From Ignavibacteriales bacterium (GTDB lineage Bacteria; Bacteroidota; Ignavibacteria; UBA10030), in NCBI GenBank assembly GCA_026390595.1, contig JAPLFQ010000023.1, forward strand, positions 186,001 through 250,000: a stretch of 64,000 nucleotides of DNA, given 5' to 3'. Below are positions 15,406-23,700 of this stretch, piece after piece. Each line of letters opens with the position of its first letter. Position 1 is the first letter of the stretch. The translations under genes and the position numbers were made by a program. Under the pieces are notes generated by a model, which was not told the origin of the DNA, ran no database searches, and saw only the letters and a list, made by a program, of their open reading frames with translations.

Positions 15406-18400
15406 TCATTGTTGGTTATTGGTAGCTTCTGCCCACACATCAGCGAACAATTCTGCCTGGTCGAGAACCTTATTCACCGAAACTGTGTATTCACCTGTCG
15501 CCGGATCATCCGGCGGGTACTTGTATTTGCGAAGAATGCGCTTGACCAGAACACGTAACTTCGCCTGGACGCTTTGTTTCAAATGCCAGTCGATTGAAGT
15601 GTTGTTTCTAACATTCTCCACCAATTCATGCGCAACCTGTTTCAATATTATATCACCGAGTATTGCTTCAGCCGTCGGATTATCAGCAAGGGCATCGTAG
15701 AAGGCAAGCTCGTCAGGGCGAAGATTCATCTTATCACCGCGCTTGTCTGCTTCGCGCATCTCCTTCGCCAGTTGAATCAGCTCTTCAATCACTTTGGCCG
15801 AATCTATAAGTCCGTTTTGATACTGCTTAACGGCCCCGGCGAGCATTTCAGAAAATTTCTTTCCTTGCACCAAATTGAATTTGGATCGGATTTTTACTTC
15901 ATCATTAATCAATCGCTTGAGTAATTCCAATGCCAGGTTTTTACGAGGCATGCCCTGAATCTCGGCAAGGAATTCATCGGAGAGAATCGAAATGTCTGGT
16001 TTCTTGATCCCTGCGGCATCAAAGATATCGATCACCTCACCGGAAACGATCGCATCGTTGACGATTTGCCGAATTGCCGTTTCAATCTCTTCATTAGTAT
16101 GTGCTCTCGTTTGATCGTCAAACTTTGCAAAACGAGCTTTGATGGCTTGGAAAAATGCCAAGTCATTGCGAATTTCGATCGCTTTGGCATGCGGCACCGC
16201 AAGGCCAAATGCTTTTTGCAGCCGGACAACATTCTCTTTGAACCGTTCCTTGCCATTCCGAAGCCGTCTATCCTCTTTTTCTTCTGTTAATTCCGAGACA
16301 TAGTTTGCGGCATCAAGAATGAATTGTAATTTATTTTTCGATTCCAGCGTATAGTACCTCCGGTACTCGAAGCGATCGAACATATCCACAACCACCTCAT
16401 ACAACTCAAGCATCTTTGCAACTGCTTCCTCCTGGTCAAATGTGATATTTCCTTTCCCTTGGCTTGCGGCGTAGATCATCATCGCATTCTTCAAATCCTG
16501 TGCAATGCCGATGTAGTCCACTATCAATCCACCTTCCTTGTCACCGAACTTGCGATTAACGCGAGCTATCGCCTGCATAAGGTTGTGCCCGTTCATCGGT
16601 TTGTCAATGTACATTGTATGCAGGCAGGGCGCGTCAAAACCGGTGAGAAACATATCTCGTACGATAAGAAGTTTGAGGGAATCTTTGGGATCTTTCAACC
16701 TGTTAGCAATTGCTTTACGGCGATCCTTGTTCCGTATATGTTCCTGCCAATCCAACGGATCGCTTGCGGAACCGGTCATGACTATCTTAATCGTGCCTTT
16801 GTCGTCAGAGGAATTGTACCAGTGTGGGCGAAGCGCAATGATCTCTTTATGTAGTTCAACACAAATGCGCCGGCTCATACAAACAATCATGCCTTTGCCT
16901 TCTGCCGCAGTGAGGCGTTGCTCAAAGTGGTTTATAAGATCGGCGGCGACTTGTTTGAGGCGGCTTTTGCTGCCAACAACTGCTTCTTTTCTTGCCCATC
17001 TGGCAAAGCGTCTCTGACGGTCGGTCAGTTCATCGTCTTCGGTTACTTCCTCTACTCGCTCATCAAGTATCTTCTTGTCGGAATCGGCAAGCTCGATCTT
17101 TGCGAGACGGCTTTCATAGTAGATCTTCACCGTTGCGCCATCTTCTACTGCTTGCTGAATGTCATAAATGTCGATGTAATTGCCAAACACTGCCTGTGTG
17201 TTCTTATCTTCTTTCTCAATCGGCGTTCCTGAAAACCCGATAAACGATGCCTTCGGCAGAGCATCGCGCATATGCCTGGCAAAACCATCGACGAAATCGT
17301 ACTGGCTCCGGTGTGCTTCATCTGCAATCACAACGATGTTGCGCCGCTCACTCAAGACTGGATATGCTGCACCGGGTTCTTCAGGGAAGAATTTCTGAAT
17401 TGTGGTAAACACAATTCCGCCCGACGCTACCGACAACAGCTTTTTCAAATCCTCGCGGTTTGCAGCTTGCGCCGGTGTCTGCCGCAACAACTGCTGACAA
17501 TTCGAGAACGTCTCAAATAGTTGCTGGTCAAGATCGTTCCGGTCTGTGAGCACAACAATCGTGGGATTGTTCATCTCCTCTGCGAGGACGAGCTTTCCGG
17601 AGTAAAACACCATCGAAAGACTTTTGCCGCTTCCCTGTGTATGCCAGACAACACCGGCCCGCCTATCACCTTTGGATTGTTGTTCTGTGCTTGCGAGCCC
17701 ATATACAGCCGGATGTTCAGCAACGATGCCGCTGCTTTCTTCTGAGGTTGCGCGGATTGTGGAAGTAATTGCGCTGTTGACTGCGAAATACTGATGATAT
17801 GCCGCCAACTTTTTTACAGTATTCTCTTTTGTTTTTTCAAAGACGATGAAATGCCTTATCACATCCAACAAAGTTTTCTTGTTCAGCAATCCTTTTACGA
17901 GCGGTTCCAATTCAGACTCTGTCTTGGAATCGATCGCACGAACACCGTCGACAGATTTCCAATCCATAAATCGAGAATAATCACTCGAAATTGTCCCAGC
18001 TTTGGCAAACCAGCCATCGCTGATGATGAGGAACGCATTAAAGGCAAAGAGAGACGGGATGAGCTGTTGATACGTCTGCAATTGATGGAATGCCGCAGCA
18101 ACATCGGCGCTTTGATCAGCGGGATTCTTGAGCTCCACAACTACCAGAGGCAATCCGTTTATGAAGAGGACAATATCCGGGCGCTTATTGTTATTATTTT
18201 CTAAAACGGTGAACTGGTTGACCGCCAAAAATTCGTTATTCTCCGGTGCGTCGAAATCCACCAGCCAAACCTTGTCAGTCTTGGTTTTGCCCTCACCTAT
18301 GCCAAACTTGATATCGACTCCCTCGGTGAGCATGCGATGGAAATGCTCGTTGTTTTCGATGGCAGCAAGCGAAACTGTGCGAAGTGCTTTTTTCAAAGCG

Positions 18401-18600
18401 TCTTCACGTGCATTTTCCGGGATAGATGTATTGATACGATCGATAGCAGTGCGAAGCCGTGCTTCCAGGACAACGTCGGTATACTCGCGTTCCTTGGTTT
18501 CGCCCTCTGTGATGTTCGGCCCATAAAGAACGGTAAAACCATTTTCTTCGCGGAGAAGGTCGAGCGCAATTTGCTCTATTTCAGATTCGTACATGATCAT
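15406..18600 (-). CDS. hsdR: Type I restriction enzyme subunit R (motor and nuclease)
   Basis: HsdR translocates DNA and cuts it when the target is unmethylated. The 1064-residue chain has the N-terminal PD-(D/E)xK nuclease ('[19 protein letters not shown]', with Asp142, Glu156 and Lys158), then two RecA-like lobes: Walker A '[12 protein letters not shown]' near 316, '[13 protein letters not shown]' near 430, and '[21 protein letters not shown]'. '[22 protein letters not shown]' and 'QAIARVNR' are motifs V and VI. The C-terminal helical region is complete. Its ATG shares one base with the stop of the HEPN gene upstream, so it is the last gene of a tightly coupled operon. Confidence 0.95.
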
Positions 18601-19652
18601 TATGGTACCAACAACCTGATGATTTCATCTTTCTCGGCATCGAATCGCCCTTGAAGATGATCTATGGACTTCTCAGTTCGTATTTTAACTGGTTCATACC
18701 AGTATTTGCTTTCCTTCTTTCGCTTGTAGAAGCAAATATACGATTCGTGACCACTTGCATCCTTGTCATAATGAAGAAATGGAGAGAGACTAAAGCATTC
18801 TGTATCCCATCGAACAAAGAGTTGTTCATGCCCAAGATTCAAGACTAACGTTTTCTGAGCATCGACGAAGGGATACGAATCGTACTCCCGGTTGAGCGCG
18901 TGGCCATTAAATGATTCGCATCGACAGGTAGAAGAGTAGCTCTCAAAACGCAATATTTTGCAGTTCTCTAGAAATCTTGTTTTGGCTAGCATGCTTTCAA
19001 ACAAGGGAATGACTTGATTCAACTCGAAATCCGCTTGTTCTCGCGTTGGAGCAGCATGGTGGGAAATATCATTGCGGATGTCCTGTAATTGCAGCAGTTC
19101 ATCCAACAAAGACTCATCGATGCATTCACATTTAAAACCAAGGGAATTCCCTTTGCTGTGCTGGACGATAGCTTTGATGTTGTGAAGTTTTTGTTTGACC
19201 GCCTCAGACAGTACTCTATCGGTGTTGAAACTTGTATATGCAGGACTACCACTTGGACCAAGAGACACAAATATCTGAGACTCCTTCAAATCCACTTGTC
19301 TGTGCCGTACTTCACCCATAACCAGAGAATAGAGAACGTATACAATCGCTTCCCAACTGTCCTTCAAATGAAGTAGTTTCCGAACCGGATCAGTCCCTCC
19401 TTCACCTTTCTCCGATAAGCGGAAGTTATAGGCGATGCACGCAGGATAGGAGTCGAAAACAGATTGCTTAAGATCTTCAAGTTCCTGTTCAAGATATTCA
19501 CTGTATGCATCTTTATAAGATTCTTTCCCAAGTTCGAACAAAATACGGCTTCGTTGGAATGAGATATTCGCAATGTTTACGTCGCCTTCTTCGTCCAGCG
19601 ATTCATTGAACGATTGAAATTGAGGGTCTTCGTATTTTATATCTGTGCTCAT
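18600..19652 (-). CDS. HEPN-motif protein embedded in the type I RM operon, unknown
   Basis: This 350-residue protein belongs to no hsd subunit. A helical middle region (residues ~90-225) ends with '[20 protein letters not shown]', in which Arg193-Asn-x3-His198 matches the HEPN RNase motif (RX4-6H with a polar residue after Arg). The C-terminal third is beta-rich with Cys and aromatic residues ('[20 protein letters not shown]', '[19 protein letters not shown]') and could be a sensor or cyclic-signal fold; I cannot name it. Its ATG overlaps the hsdS stop by 4 bases and its stop overlaps the hsdR start, so it is made with the RM subunits. Base composition is AT-rich. By analogy with PrrC and RloC, HEPN anticodon nucleases found in hsd loci, a backup RNase is a reasonable guess, but no ATPase is present. 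Confidence 0.75.
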
Positions 19653-20869
19653 ACCTCAATCTCTCCGCACATCAATTTGGGAAGCAAATTGTCACGTATC
19701 TTGGTGAGAGAGCTAGACTGTTGTAGGTTTTCTTCAATAGTTGAAAACAAGGGTTCTATTATTGTATGATACTCTTTCATCGTCTGGCTATCGGGAATTG
19801 TCAACACAAGATTTTTCAGCAATTCCTGACTTATGTTTTGTTGTGCTGAACCAACAGCTCTCGAAATAAGGTCATCTCTGCTATTTTGTAGGAACTGAAA
19901 AACGAAAGTGAAAGGATTGCTGTCATTGGGTATAAAAGCGCAAATGGCTTGATTCGTTGTAGCTTCGTTGCTAACAATACCGATTTCTCCAACAGTAGCA
20001 CCGTACATTGCTACCAATACAGAGTGTTTTGGAATAAGCTTGGCTGCCGAATTCCTAAGCGCCTCATCAGTGATCTTTTCTTCTGTATCGATTACAAATG
20101 ATCCGTTTAATTCTTTCGATTTGACCCACTGGTTGATACCATTTTCGTAGTATTCATTTTGAGATCTAGAAGGAGTACCACCTGACGTGGTTTTGTACAT
20201 GTCTCCGAGCTTTCCCACTCTCCACCCCTTCGGTATCATCCCTAATTCACTTTCGATCATTTCGCCTGTGGCGCCCGGGAAGCGAAACTCCACGAACCAC
20301 TCCTTAAATATCTCCTGTGCAATTGCCTCAAGCGTCGCGTCGGTCTGGCGGTTGAGTTCGATCTTCTCGTCCAGCGAGCAGAGAATTGCGGCAACCCGAC
20401 GCTGGATGGGTAGATCAGGTACTACGAATTGAAGGTTCTCTAAATCTTTGCCACTGAAGTTGGCTTGAGCACTACCCAACCCAAGCTCAATTATTTGTGA
20501 ATTGTTTGCATTGTCGGTGATTAGATAATACAAGAAATCTTTGTCTGAGATACCCTCGACACTGTCTATCTTTGCGACACGTTGATTAACATACGCTACC
20601 ACATTTTCTTTGAATCTGCCGACCTTGCCAAGAGTTGCGCCCGTCATGGCAATCAAAATATCGTCTTGTGCGAGTTTGAAACGATCTAAACCAACGACTT
20701 TATCTGCGGAGATTCTCTGGCAATTAGTAAGATCAACTCTGGGCGGAGCTATTTCAGCGATTTTGACTACAGGAAATCCTTCAACCCCAAAATCATCACT
20801 CTTGAACGCGTATCCGGGTATTACTCTCGCAATATCTCCAAATCGTTTTTCTGTGAAGCTTACACTCAT
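19649..20869 (-). CDS. hsdS: Type I RM specificity subunit S
   Basis: HsdS recognises the bipartite DNA target and bridges M and R. The 406-residue product has two target-recognition domains: residues ~1-150 ('KRFGDIARVIPGYAFKSDDF', ending 'ENLQFVVPDLPIQRRVAAIL') and ~205-375 ('WRVGKLGDMYKTTSGGTPSR', ending 'LKNLVLTIPDSQTM'). Each is followed by a conserved coiled-coil spacer ('LDEKIELNRQTDATLEAIAQ', 'EENLQQSSSLTKIRDNLLP'). The ATG at 20869 overlaps the upstream PDDEXK gene stop as ATGA and has GAAGGGG upstream, so the in-frame codon 30 bases earlier is not used. Confidence 0.93.
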   Translation of the reverse strand: MSVSFTEKRFGDIARVIPGYAFKSDDFGVEGFPVVKIAEIAPPRVDLTNCQRISADKVVGLDRFKLAQDDILIAMTGATLGKVGRFKENVVAYVNQRVAKIDSVEGISDKDFLYYLITDNANNSQIIELGLGSAQANFSGKDLENLQFVVPDLPIQRRVAAILCSLDEKIELNRQTDATLEAIAQEIFKEWFVEFRFPGATGEMIESELGMIPKGWRVGKLGDMYKTTSGGTPSRSQNEYYENGINQWVKSKELNGSFVIDTEEKITDEALRNSAAKLIPKHSVLVAMYGATVGEIGIVSNEATTNQAICAFIPNDSNPFTFVFQFLQNSRDDLISRAVGSAQQNISQELLKNLVLTIPDSQTMKEYHTIIEPLFSTIEENLQQSSSLTKIRDNLLPKLMCGEIEV

Positions 20870-21978
20870 CGCTGATCCCCTTCCTTCTGTTCTGTCCAAT
20901 CCAGCAACTTTTGTTTCAATTCTTCTTTGGAAGGTAGGTAGAGCTGGTACTGTTTGGCAAAGATATTTGCTCCTTTCGGCAGTGTGATTTCCACAAGTGC
21001 GTCATGTTTCTTCTTGCAGAGAATAATTCCCACGGTCGGTTTTTCATCATCCGTCTTTATGTGGCGGTCGTAGTAATTTACATACATCTGCATTTGTCCG
21101 AGGTCCTGGTGTGTCAGCTTCCCGATTTTAAGATCTATCAGGACGTAACAACGCAGCAGCCGGTTGTAGAAGACCAGGTCGACAAAGAAATGATCTTCAT
21201 CAAACGTGAATCGTCTTTGGCGTGCTTCAAAGAGAAACCCTTTCCCCAGTTCGCGCAAGAATTTTCCAAGCTTATCAATAATGGCAGATTCAAGATCCGT
21301 CTCAGAATATGCAGCCCGTTCATCCAAACCGAGAAACTCAAGAATGTATGGTTCTTTGAGCACATCCTTCGGGTCTGCAATCTGCTGTCCGTGCCGCGCA
21401 AGTTTTCCGATTCCTGTTGTATTGCGGCTTGCAGCGAGGCGCTCAAATAAACCGGAATCGAACTGTCGTTTCAATTCCCGCAGAGACCAATTCTGGGACG
21501 CAGCTTCAATTTCATAGAAACGGCGTTCTTCTGTCCTTTTCACTCCGATCAGGAAAACATAATGAGACCACGAGAGTGGGAACGGAATGACCGGTGTCTT
21601 CGCGCTTACAGCAAGAGGAGATTTGTCGGATGGCGTCTCGGATTTCCGGCTTACCGACAATTTCCGAGACGGTGTCTCGGAAATGTTCGTTAGACTTCCG
21701 TAAATCAGATAGAACTTTCGCATGTTCGAGAGATTGTCTTCCGAGAAGCCACGTCCAAATTCCTTTGTCAGCGTAACCGAAAGTTGCTTCAGGACCGCTT
21801 TGCCATACTCCGCCCGCTTTTCCCCCTGCTGTTCGTGTTCGATAATTCTGTGCCCGATTTCAAAGCACGTGAGCACCTGAATGGTATCAACACTGCGGGC
21901 AACAGTTTGTCGGGCAGCGAGGATCAGCTCCCTGATCCGGCGCAACAGTATGGTGCTGTCGATTTTCTTAGATCTCAT
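20866..21978 (-). CDS. DUF1016 (YhcG-type) PD-(D/E)xK nuclease-domain protein in the RM operon
   Basis: The 370-residue protein starts with a helical DUF1016 N-terminal domain ('AEYGKAVLKQLSVTLTKEFG', 'FSEDNLSNMRKFYLIY') and ends with the PDDEXK-like core ('DEDHFFVDLVFYNRLLRCYV', 'LIDLKIGKLTHQDLGQMQMY'), near residues 255-300. YhcG homologues are often found with hsd genes or alone in defence islands; their role is not settled. Between the domains lies a Ser/Thr/Lys-rich insert ('SETPSRKLSVSRKSETPSDK') encoded by repeated DNA, including a perfect palindrome. The ATG at 21978 or a GTG five codons earlier may start it; neither has a good binding site. It is 4-base coupled to hsdS downstream. 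Confidence 0.88.
   Translation of the reverse strand: MRSKKIDSTILLRRIRELILAARQTVARSVDTIQVLTCFEIGHRIIEHEQQGEKRAEYGKAVLKQLSVTLTKEFGRGFSEDNLSNMRKFYLIYGSLTNISETPSRKLSVSRKSETPSDKSPLAVSAKTPVIPFPLSWSHYVFLIGVKRTEERRFYEIEAASQNWSLRELKRQFDSGLFERLAASRNTTGIGKLARHGQQIADPKDVLKEPYILEFLGLDERAAYSETDLESAIIDKLGKFLRELGKGFLFEARQRRFTFDEDHFFVDLVFYNRLLRCYVLIDLKIGKLTHQDLGQMQMYVNYYDRHIKTDDEKPTVGIILCKKKHDALVEITLPKGANIFAKQYQLYLPSKEELKQKLLDWTEQKEGDQR
21634..21698. repeat. Palindromic repeat inside the DUF1016 coding region
   Basis: Arms of 11 bases (21660-21670 and 21674-21684, ATTTCCGAGAC and its complement) around a 3-base centre make a perfect palindrome within the codons for 'SETPSRK'. A second, diverged copy of the TCCGAGAC word lies 39 bases away in frame and encodes 'SETPSDK'. 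A near copy of the palindrome occurs outside the gene at 22142-22166. Confidence 0.7.
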
Positions 21979-22037
21979 AGACTGCCCGACCACGTCAACA
22001 GCTTGTTGGCTTTTTTTTCTCCGAACGGCAATTGCGA

Positions 22038-22072
22038 AACAACCTGTTTCGTCAATTGGGCAACAGGTTGTT
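22038..22072. repeat. Inverted repeat between hsdM and the DUF1016 gene
   Basis: AACAACCTGTT (22038-22048) and its exact complement (22062-22072) enclose 13 bases. A smaller nested palindrome (CGAAAC / GTTTCG, 22035-22051) overlaps it. There is no T-run, so it is not a classical terminator. It could be an operator or a repeat element in the ~195-base gap that separates hsdM from the rest of the operon. Confidence 0.5.
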
Positions 22073-22141
22073 ACCTAATTGCATCGAATGCTTATCAAAG
22101 GTGAACACTTATTTTCTTGCAGGTTCTTTGTCCATACACTA

Positions 22142-22166
22142 ATTTCCCAGACAGCGTCTCGGAAAT
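22142..22166. repeat. Second copy of the TTTCCGAGAC-type palindrome, just downstream of hsdM
   Basis: Eleven-base arms with one mismatch (22142-22152, 22156-22166). The right arm and the next few bases are identical to the copy within the DUF1016 gene (GTCTCGGAAATGTTC). It lies 8 bases after the hsdM stop. Confidence 0.65.
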
Positions 22167-22173
22167 GTTCTTT

Positions 22174-23700
22174 TCAGAACTCATAACCGATGCTTTTGAG
22201 GTTGCTCCGAATGGTTGTTTCCAGTTCGCTGCTTTTTGTAAACTGTTCAGCCAGTTTTGTCGTCAGGGCGTTCATCTTCTCTTCAAACGGGATGCCATCA
22301 TCGACCTCTTCTTCTGTGCCGACATAACGTCCGGGCATCAAGACGTATCCGTTCTTCTCGCTTCTGATTTCTTCGATTGTAGCAGACTTGCAGAATCCGG
22401 CTTTGTCCTGGTACTTACCCTCTCTGTTCCGCCAGGCATGATATGTTTGAGCGATCAGAGCAATGTCGTCGTCGGTGAATTCTTTATTCCGCCTGTTGAT
22501 CATCGTGCCAAGCTTGCGGGCATCGATGAAGAGAATCTCGTTTGACCGGTTACGGAATTTATGATTGGTTTTGTTGCGCGCCAAAAACCAGAGACAGGCA
22601 GGGATCATCGTGTTGTAGAATAATTGCGCAGGGAGCGCTACCATACAGTCGATCAAGCCGGCTTCGATCATGTTCTTACGAATGTCACCTTCACCGCCGG
22701 AATTACTATTCATGCTTCCATTGGCGAGCACAATACCTGCCGTTCCGTTGGGGCTGAGCTTGTGCGCAAAATGCTGAAGCCAGGCGTAATTGGCATTTCC
22801 GACAGGCGGAATACCATATTTCCAGCGTTTATCATCACGCAGTTGTTCTCCATTCCAATCACTCACATTGAAAGGCGGGTTAGCGAGAACAAAGTCCATT
22901 TTCTGATCTGGGTGTTTGTCGACCAAGAATGTATCGCCCAATTCCAATTTTGCATCGATACCGCGGATGGCGAGATTCATCTTGGCAAGGCGCAGTGTCG
23001 TCGGGTTCGATTCTTGACCGAAGATTGAAAGGTCTTTGATGTTTCCCCGGTGATTGAGGACAAATTTTTCACTCTGCACAAACATTCCGCCGCTACCACA
23101 GCAACCGTCGTATACTCGACCGTTGAACGGTTCCAGCATTTCGACCAGTAATTTCACTATGCTTTGTGGTGTCCAGAACTGCCCACCTTTCTTCCCTTCA
23201 GCATCTGCGAACTGTCCGAGGAAGTATTCGTAGACCCGACCAAGCAAGTCCTGGGATTTGTGGGCGTCTTGTTTGAAGCCGATGGTGCCGATAAGATCGA
23301 TTAACTCTCCTAAGCGTTGCTTGTTCAGTTCGGGGTCAGCGTATATCTTTGGAAGTATGTTCTTCAAAGGCGGATTGATTTTCTCAATTGCCTCCATTGC
23401 GTTATCAATCAATTTCCCAATTTCGGGTTGCTTGGCCCGATCCTGCAAATACTGCCAACGTGCTTTTTCCGGCACGAAGAAAATATTGTGAGCAAGGTAT
23501 TCATCAGGATCTTCCGGGTCTGCTCCGGATTCTTCCGTCTCAAGCTGAAGCTCATGATGTAACTCTTCGAACGCATCAGAAATGTACTTGAGAAAGATCA
23601 AGCCCAAAACAATGTGCTTGTACTCCGCTGCATCCATATTCGAGCGCATTTTGTCCGCAGCAGCCCAAAGGGCTTTTTCGAGCTCGTTATTGTCAGCCAT
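22174..23700 (-). CDS. hsdM: Type I RM methyltransferase subunit M
   Basis: HsdM methylates adenine N6 within the target, with two copies per complex. The 508-residue protein has the helical N-terminal domain ('[33 protein letters not shown]'), the AdoMet motif I '[14 protein letters not shown]' near residue 195 and the catalytic motif IV 'NPPFN' near 275. The C-terminal helical tail that contacts HsdS is complete. A GGAG site lies 7 bases before the ATG. It is the first gene of the RM operon, and the island between priA and hpnE is visibly richer in A+T than both flanks, which suggests acquisition by transfer. Confidence 0.95.

Follow-up and report, generated by a model that had tools for sequence, protein, structure and literature searches.

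A HEPN-like protein encoded between hsdS and hsdR shares a small module with Abi_C-type proteins and with phage proteins, and may guard type I restriction

The window, that is, the whole stretch of 64,000 nucleotides analysed here, contains a type I restriction–modification (RM) operon in which a gene for a HEPN-like protein, hereafter X, lies between hsdS and hsdR. The genes and features are as follows:

15406..18600, minus strand: hsdR, 1064 aa, intact (Pfam HSDR_N, SWI2_SNF2 and T1RH-like_C)
18600..19652, minus strand: X, an open reading frame for a 350-aa HEPN-like protein, between hsdS and hsdR
18603..18959, minus strand: C-terminal beta domain of X, residues 232-350, weakly OB-fold/SH3-like (model of residues 226-350, pLDDT 84; VIA Z at most 5.5)
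18960..19454, minus strand: HEPN-like helical domain of X, residues 67-231 (model pLDDT 86; HEPN toxins as top second-look structural matches, Z 7.1-5.7)
19059..19076, minus strand: X motif R193-N-D-I-S-H198 (Rx4H with a polar residue after R; R, N and H identical in 17/17)
19299..19313, minus strand: X residues E114-V-R-H-R118, second HEPN signature Ex3[KR] (E114 and R116 in 17/17, Ex3[KR] in 16/17)
19482..19631, minus strand: N-terminal module of X, residues ~8-57 (FNxxLDE..G.V.I....F..SRIL.E....Y..A..EY), common to the C-termini of Abi_C-type HEPN proteins and to phage proteins
19649..20899, minus strand: hsdS, 416 aa (Methylase_S, two stretches)
20866..21993, minus strand: YhcG/DUF1016 PDDEXK-family gene in the hsdM/hsdS interval (YhcG_C E 1.5e-52, DUF1016_N E 5.7e-40)
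22174..23700, minus strand: hsdM, 508 aa (N6_Mtase, HsdM_N)

As the initial annotation had described it, X is a 350-codon gene with an RNx3H motif that shares 4 nt with hsdS and 1 nt with hsdR. The frame is intact with an ATG start, and the two overlaps read ATGA and TAATG. The five genes follow one another on one strand in the order hsdM, YhcG-type gene, hsdS, X and hsdR. Their G+C content is 42-48%, against 54-55% in the flanks, and this contrast suggests that the hsd cluster was probably acquired as a unit. Positions 15406-23700 are island-like, flanked by priA and a carotenoid/hopanoid-type oxidoreductase gene (names assigned by eye). At E<=0.001, X is the sole match to itself in the genome of the window.

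Relatives of X were found in sixteen other species (loci L007-L022) by a pattern-based scan of a genome collection with a three-row alignment, in which 71 pattern matches led to 16 loci in a survey that is not exhaustive; L017 appears to be the same locus as L002, and L010 the same as L004. According to the record titles, their hosts belong to Bacteroidota, delta-, beta- and gammaproteobacteria, Lentisphaerae and Riflebacteria, and many are metagenome bins. R193, N194 and H198 are identical in all 17 sequences (window plus 16), some of which share 25% identity; the initial annotation had made its reading depend on the conservation of R193 and H198. Likewise invariant are E114, R116, R235, E246, F248, G250 and P291, and Ex3[KR] starting at E114 is kept in 16/17. 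Both motifs, Rx4-6H and Ex3[KR], are described as HEPN signatures (PMC3710099, in part), and the second occurs in many HEPN families. Rx4-6H arose in 82% and RNx3H in 2.0% of 20,000 shuffles of X; the bare motif is not rare by chance, and the HEPN argument is therefore carried by its conservation. X relatives are under purifying selection in three close pairs: these closest pairs, near 88% identity, give dN/dS values of 0.047-0.068, and dN/dS was not computable for four more distant ones.

The AlphaFold model of X, built from 16 sequences, has a pLDDT of 86.2 and a pTM of 0.85. Foldseek retrieved nothing from the PDB at E<=0.001 with the whole model. A second look (VIA), which realigns Foldseek's own candidates, placed X residues about 67-232 on 8xdj_C with a Z of 7.1 (rmsd 3.6, 118 residues), a value within the range reachable by chance for helical bundles, and the same region on 8xeh (6.8), 6m6w (6.7), 5yep (6.7) and 6m6u (5.7). 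These five of the top seven VIA rows are identified as HEPN toxins by their titles or in PMC4621449; the top group also holds 7bxo (6.7, titled toxin-antitoxin) and 1wwp (6.8, its title naming no fold), and the designed protein 8ka6 (Z 5.7) ties the weakest HEPN row. The initial annotation had staked its reading on a predicted HEPN fold, and HEPN toxins are the best VIA matches of the model, from which the helical domain of X likely has this fold. In the model, R193-H198 closes the helix 180-196. R97-N-x3-H102 of SO_3166 (5yep) also lies at a helix end, and a change of R or H abolishes toxicity (PMC4621449, in part). Counted back without a residue alignment from the aligned ends 231 and 133, the motifs lie 38 (X) and 36 (SO_3166) residues away.

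X had been described as two halves, and three parts were found; the N-terminal module, which had gone unrecognised, proved the most informative of them. The C-terminal domain modelled alone has a pLDDT of 84.0; Foldseek again returned nothing at E<=0.001 for it, and its best VIA row reaches Z 5.5 with a title that is not OB, followed by EF-P/eIF5A rows at 4-5. We do not assign an OB or SH3 identity, the resemblance being too weak to name a fold. The description of this domain as Cys-rich holds for C245 (16/17) and C307 (13/17) and fails for C231 and C243 (8/17 each) and C286 (4/17). Such uneven conservation does not suggest a metal site, and a zinc-binding domain was rejected.

Library searches covered 16 X members, L008 being left out. 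Their best E-values were 0.016 in Pfam, 0.039 in NCBIfam and 0.001 in PADLOC, the last from PDC-M36B, an unlabelled candidate model matched by 2/16 members. The Pfam HEPN models were barely reached: RiboL-PSP at E 0.043 and Apea at E 0.14, each by 1/16 members, and an ApeA-type HEPN was set aside on the latter value. Neither Pfam Abi_C nor PADLOC AbiJ was among the matches of the 16 members at E<=1, a profile comparison of the HEPN part of X with one Abi_C HEPN protein gave nothing, and a sequence search of the PDB gave nothing credible. The reported lack of an ATPase part agrees with these searches, in which no P-loop family was among the matches of the 16 members at E<=1 (PDC-M36B being unlabelled); a Walker A pattern occurs, unconserved, in 1/17 X sequences. 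Judged by sequence, none of the libraries searched contains a named family that X and its relatives match, and no description of it or of its module was found in the literature covered, mostly without subscription papers and without preprints. At least 16 HEPN clades occur in RM neighbourhoods, among which AbiJ solos, AbiU2 and ApeA carry no ATPase fusion (Anantharaman et al. 2013, PMC3710099, in part). Of the earlier proposal of a new, ATPase-free nuclease, the novelty stands for the sequence family, which matched no named family searched, and not for the class, since ATPase-free RM-linked HEPN proteins were already known (same source, in part).

The survey for homologues in the hsdS–hsdR gap that the initial annotation had suggested places X there in 17/17 loci, window included, always after hsdS and before hsdR in the direction of transcription, with all three genes on one strand. 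In 15/17 loci hsdM can be seen as well, the remaining two contigs (L008, L019) being short. The hsdS–X gap is -74 to +4 nt in 15/17 loci, where the two largest overlaps assume the most upstream start codon, and the X–hsdR gap is -20 to +34 nt in 12/17, extra genes intervening in the rest; the end of X in L008 was taken from a tblastn match. X is rare: it was found in 2/395 genomes of the phylum (one being the window's own), in 1/294 genomes of the class (the own genome) and, at full length, in 2/390 genomes from the order of G186, G186 included. No match was found in plasmids or phages with X as query, in viral contigs with the query A2, in plasmids with the Buttiauxella relative, or in E. coli genomes searched by DNA.

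In the L010/L022 pair, HsdR is 89% and HsdM 83% identical and X only 24%; HsdR identity of at least 70% coincides with X identity below 35% in 15/105 pairs, although X and HsdR identities are still correlated over all pairs (Spearman 0.43). X subfamilies are swapped on similar hsd backbones, as exchangeable cargo would be. An hsdR relative at E<=1e-150 is present in 57/296 phylum genomes, and the 30 best-scoring loci were fetched. Immediately before hsdR, two of these have X (the window is one of them), two have hsdS itself, and two, L059 and L061 from the genomes of L038 and L039, encode an Abi_C-module protein. The remaining loci hold assorted genes (by eye RhuM, Fic, HigBA-like, REP transposase) or were unreadable. 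The hsdS–hsdR site has already been termed a potential hotspot, with DarTG2 in it (PMC12255303, in part).

Several neighbours of X were recorded alongside. At L013:8826-10488, DarT-like and DarG/macro-domain genes (by eye) occupy the X–hsdR interval, so that a toxin pair shares the slot with X, and RhuM-like genes (by eye) nearly fill the X–hsdR gap at L007:9050-10093, L014:9036-10061 and L016:6110-7111. A YhcG/DUF1016 PDDEXK-type gene between hsdM and hsdS occurs also at L007:5666-6787 and L012:5735-6835.

The N-terminal module links X to a second group of proteins. A two-row profile matched the end of a different protein of 212 aa (L005), which matches Abi_C at E 1.9e-6 and aligns through its last 50 residues with residues 1-57 of X. 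The module profile A5, composed of 12 X rows, 2 Abi_C-type rows and 2 phage rows, gave 6 matches in 296 phylum genomes: the window itself, a further X, three proteins of the Abi_C type and a spurious match (L041, dropped for its in-frame stops). In 274 gammaproteobacterial genomes it gave 2 matches, the X of the centre genome and one Abi_C-type protein. Abi_C-type copies were found by tblastn in 12 Acinetobacter plasmid records, two of which were read; plasmids searched with one Abi_C-type module and viral contigs searched with an Abi_C-type relative gave no match. In 7/7 loci read (L005, L023, L034, L035, L038, L039, L040), the Abi_C-type gene lies between an hsdS frame and hsdR, where the upstream frame of L005 looks like an hsdM-hsdS fusion and hsdS of L035 was called by eye. 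All five scanned of these seven match Pfam Abi_C, one of them below the cut-off. Like X, these Abi_C/AbiJ-solo-like proteins combine the hsdS–hsdR slot, the module of ~50 aa and a HEPN-type motif; unlike X, they carry the module at the C-terminus, belong to another HEPN family with an R-x7-H motif (by eye) and have no beta C-domain. Thus two different HEPN families in one slot carry the same module at opposite protein ends.

Phages encode the module as a separate small protein. The window module as query reached 145 phage records at E<=10, the best among the matches listed being 0.002, and a Vequintavirus copy of the module reached 199 of 50,697 records at E<=1e-3, including phages of Escherichia, Pseudomonas, Vibrio, Proteus, Providencia and Pelagibacter. 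The plasmid record H119 was discarded as a probably mislabelled phage on account of its size, that of Vequintavirus phages, and its near-identity to them. Run against 403 ORFs, an HMM of 12 X rows recovered the module protein in 7/10 phage loci, with E from 1.8e-11 to 6.4e-3; the test is not fully independent because the loci were picked by tblastn and the X rows had been aligned with two phage rows. Reversed proteins gave 0.19 at best, and ten shuffles gave none up to E 1. With two Abi_C-type rows added, the HMM again recovered 7/10 phage loci (reversed best 0.041, shuffled 0.35). The loci counted as misses are L077 and L078, with no HMM match, and L075, with only E 0.45 in the X-only model. 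PHROGs 9294, 9396 and 37123 link phage and bacterial copies of the module, and all three are listed as of unknown function; the matches were L035 to 9396 (E 5.7e-4), L018 to 9294 (7.4e-4), L010 to 9294 (2.6e-3) and the window to 9396 (7.9e-3). The remaining 4/8 bacterial proteins scanned (L002, L013, L023, L038) matched none of these three PHROGs.

Nine phage module proteins are strongly acidic, with a net charge of -11 to -34 in 71-132 residues, or -1.5 to -2.6 per ten residues; 61 neighbouring annotated genes, not all from the same loci, have a mean of +0.1 (sd 0.85), with 3/61 below -1.5. The start of the module gene is 2.1-3.4 kb inside the left end in the records of the six distinct Proteus phages listed and of Providencia phage PS3, all of 41-43 kb. 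PSTRCR_114 has the gene on the opposite strand, 2.9 kb from the right end, and the deposited records of MTT, PSTCR2 and Pseudomonas PA28 have it farther inside. In Pelagibacter phage HTVC109P it starts at 589, ahead of the RNA polymerase gene. T7 Ocr is likewise small, acidic and encoded near the early end, though acidic phage proteins are common.

The guard model has been argued for RM-linked HEPN genes in general (PMC3710099, PMC3506569, both in part), and PrrC, a well-studied nuclease guarding a restriction enzyme, is linked to type I hsd genes, kept silent by the RM enzyme and set free by inhibition of restriction (PMC3710099, PMC12707154, both in part). PARIS (AriA-AriB) is called an 'RM guardian' alongside PrrC, since it senses inhibition of RM (PMC12707154, in part). 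X resembles PrrC in lying within a type I hsd locus (17/17). Whereas PrrC and RloC have a fused ABC ATPase and a C-terminal HEPN domain, X has a central HEPN-like domain, an N-terminal module and a beta C-domain; by analogy, X may be likened to PrrC in logic and is not a PrrC, lacking the ATPase. HepT/SO_3166 HEPN-MNT toxins share with X the RNx3H motif at identical spacing (RNIAVH in SO_3166) and are its best second-look structural matches, but their partner is a nucleotidyltransferase antitoxin, while X in the window neighbours hsdS and hsdR, both overlapping it. DarTG2 of the RRDM island has in common with X the hsdS–hsdR slot. DarTG2 is an ADP-ribosylating DNA toxin with an antitoxin and not a HEPN protein, and the PARIS proteins differ again, being an ATPase sensor and a Toprim nuclease.

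We lean towards the reading, moderately probable in our judgement, that X is a HEPN RNase guard silenced by the type I enzyme and released when restriction fails. X would be made in step with HsdS and HsdR, and the assembled restriction enzyme would silence it, with the acidic N-terminal module as a putative dock that holds the HEPN domain on the assembled Hsd subunits. The dock contact would break if the enzyme were lost or met a phage inhibitor; the freed HEPN domain (R193, N194 and H198, helped by E114) would then cut host RNA, and growth would halt before the phage matures. We infer the RNase activity of X, its docking, its silencing by Hsd, the trigger and the RNA target; the role of the module as dock or sensor is suggested by the two HEPN types that bear it in a single slot. 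In favour of the guard reading are the slot common to 17/17 loci from varied taxa, the invariant R, N and H at the spacing of SO_3166, the HEPN toxins at the head of the VIA list, the exchange of X on constant backbones and the module in the same slot in 7/7 Abi_C-type loci. Against the guard reading stand the slot's other genes, which are not obviously RM-responsive, together with the null Foldseek result, the chance-range VIA Z, the tie with the designed protein 8ka6, the barely reached Pfam HEPN models and the empty profile comparison with one Abi_C HEPN.

X might instead be a self-contained abortive-infection toxin that sits in a hotspot, senses a phage product itself and uses Hsd only for co-expression. 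The independent exchange of X from its backbone would suit such a toxin, as would the naming of the slot as a potential hotspot (PMC12255303, in part) and the many different genes in the 30 hsdR loci, but X was found only in hsd operons (17/17), searches of the sensitivity used gave none in plasmids, phages or viral contigs, and we regard this reading as unlikely. Cargo such as RhuM or HigBA occurs outside hsd operons too. Distinctly unlikely, in our view, is that X, without catalytic activity, acts as an accessory subunit modulating the restriction enzyme (assembly, DNA/RNA binding or restriction alleviation), with RNxxxH binding nucleic acid. The linkage in every locus, the frequent short overlaps and the weakly OB-fold-like C-domain are compatible with it, and some HEPN domains are non-catalytic RNA binders, typically without the motif (PMC3710099, in part); X, however, keeps the catalytic signature (R/N/H 17/17, Ex3[KR] 16/17), and its presence in only 2 of the 30 best-scoring phylum hsdR loci, one of them the window, argues that X is dispensable for the enzyme. 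Least of all do we expect X and the YhcG-type nuclease gene to form one composite defence unit with RM in which X is not specifically a guard: the window, L007 and L012 have that gene in the hsdM/hsdS interval, but the other 14/17 loci gave no blastp YhcG match, L008 and L019 being too short there.

Within the guard reading, the phage copies of the module make testable a further speculation, a displacement tripwire, to which we give a low probability: the module of X and the acidic phage module proteins might share one binding surface on the type I enzyme. A phage module protein that blocked restriction would then evict X and arm its RNase. If true, the sensor would have been built from the saboteur's own fold, twice (in X and in the Abi_C-type proteins), and the phage module proteins would be an unrecognised anti-restriction family. 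What recurs is one small module with two HEPN families at the same type I operon position, present also as a separate protein in many lytic phages. It makes the way in which an RM enzyme holds a toxin testable with a piece of 50 residues and draws attention to phage families that PHROGs lists as of unknown function.

Further observations were made at individual loci. A 132-aa protein with a GxxxxGKT P-loop adjoins X in three Bacteroidota loci (L009:4807-5205, L011:7601-7999, L013:8200-8598), in the hsdS/X interval in two and directly after X in one; the two copies scanned have weak P-loop family matches only. It could be an NTPase acting in trans, that of PrrC being fused. The hsdM/hsdS interval of an X-bearing locus, L015:5943-6356, encodes a nucleotidyltransferase substrate-binding protein (PF08780, E 4.4e-32). 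hsdS is split into two overlapping frames at L008:276-1492 and L019:3-1371, the former possibly by sequencing error, the contig being of low coverage. A protein of 254-279 aa recurs before hsdR in L048, L051 and L054; its RDFRNFIHP stretch in L048 is HEPN-like by eye, and it is possibly a third HEPN family in the slot.
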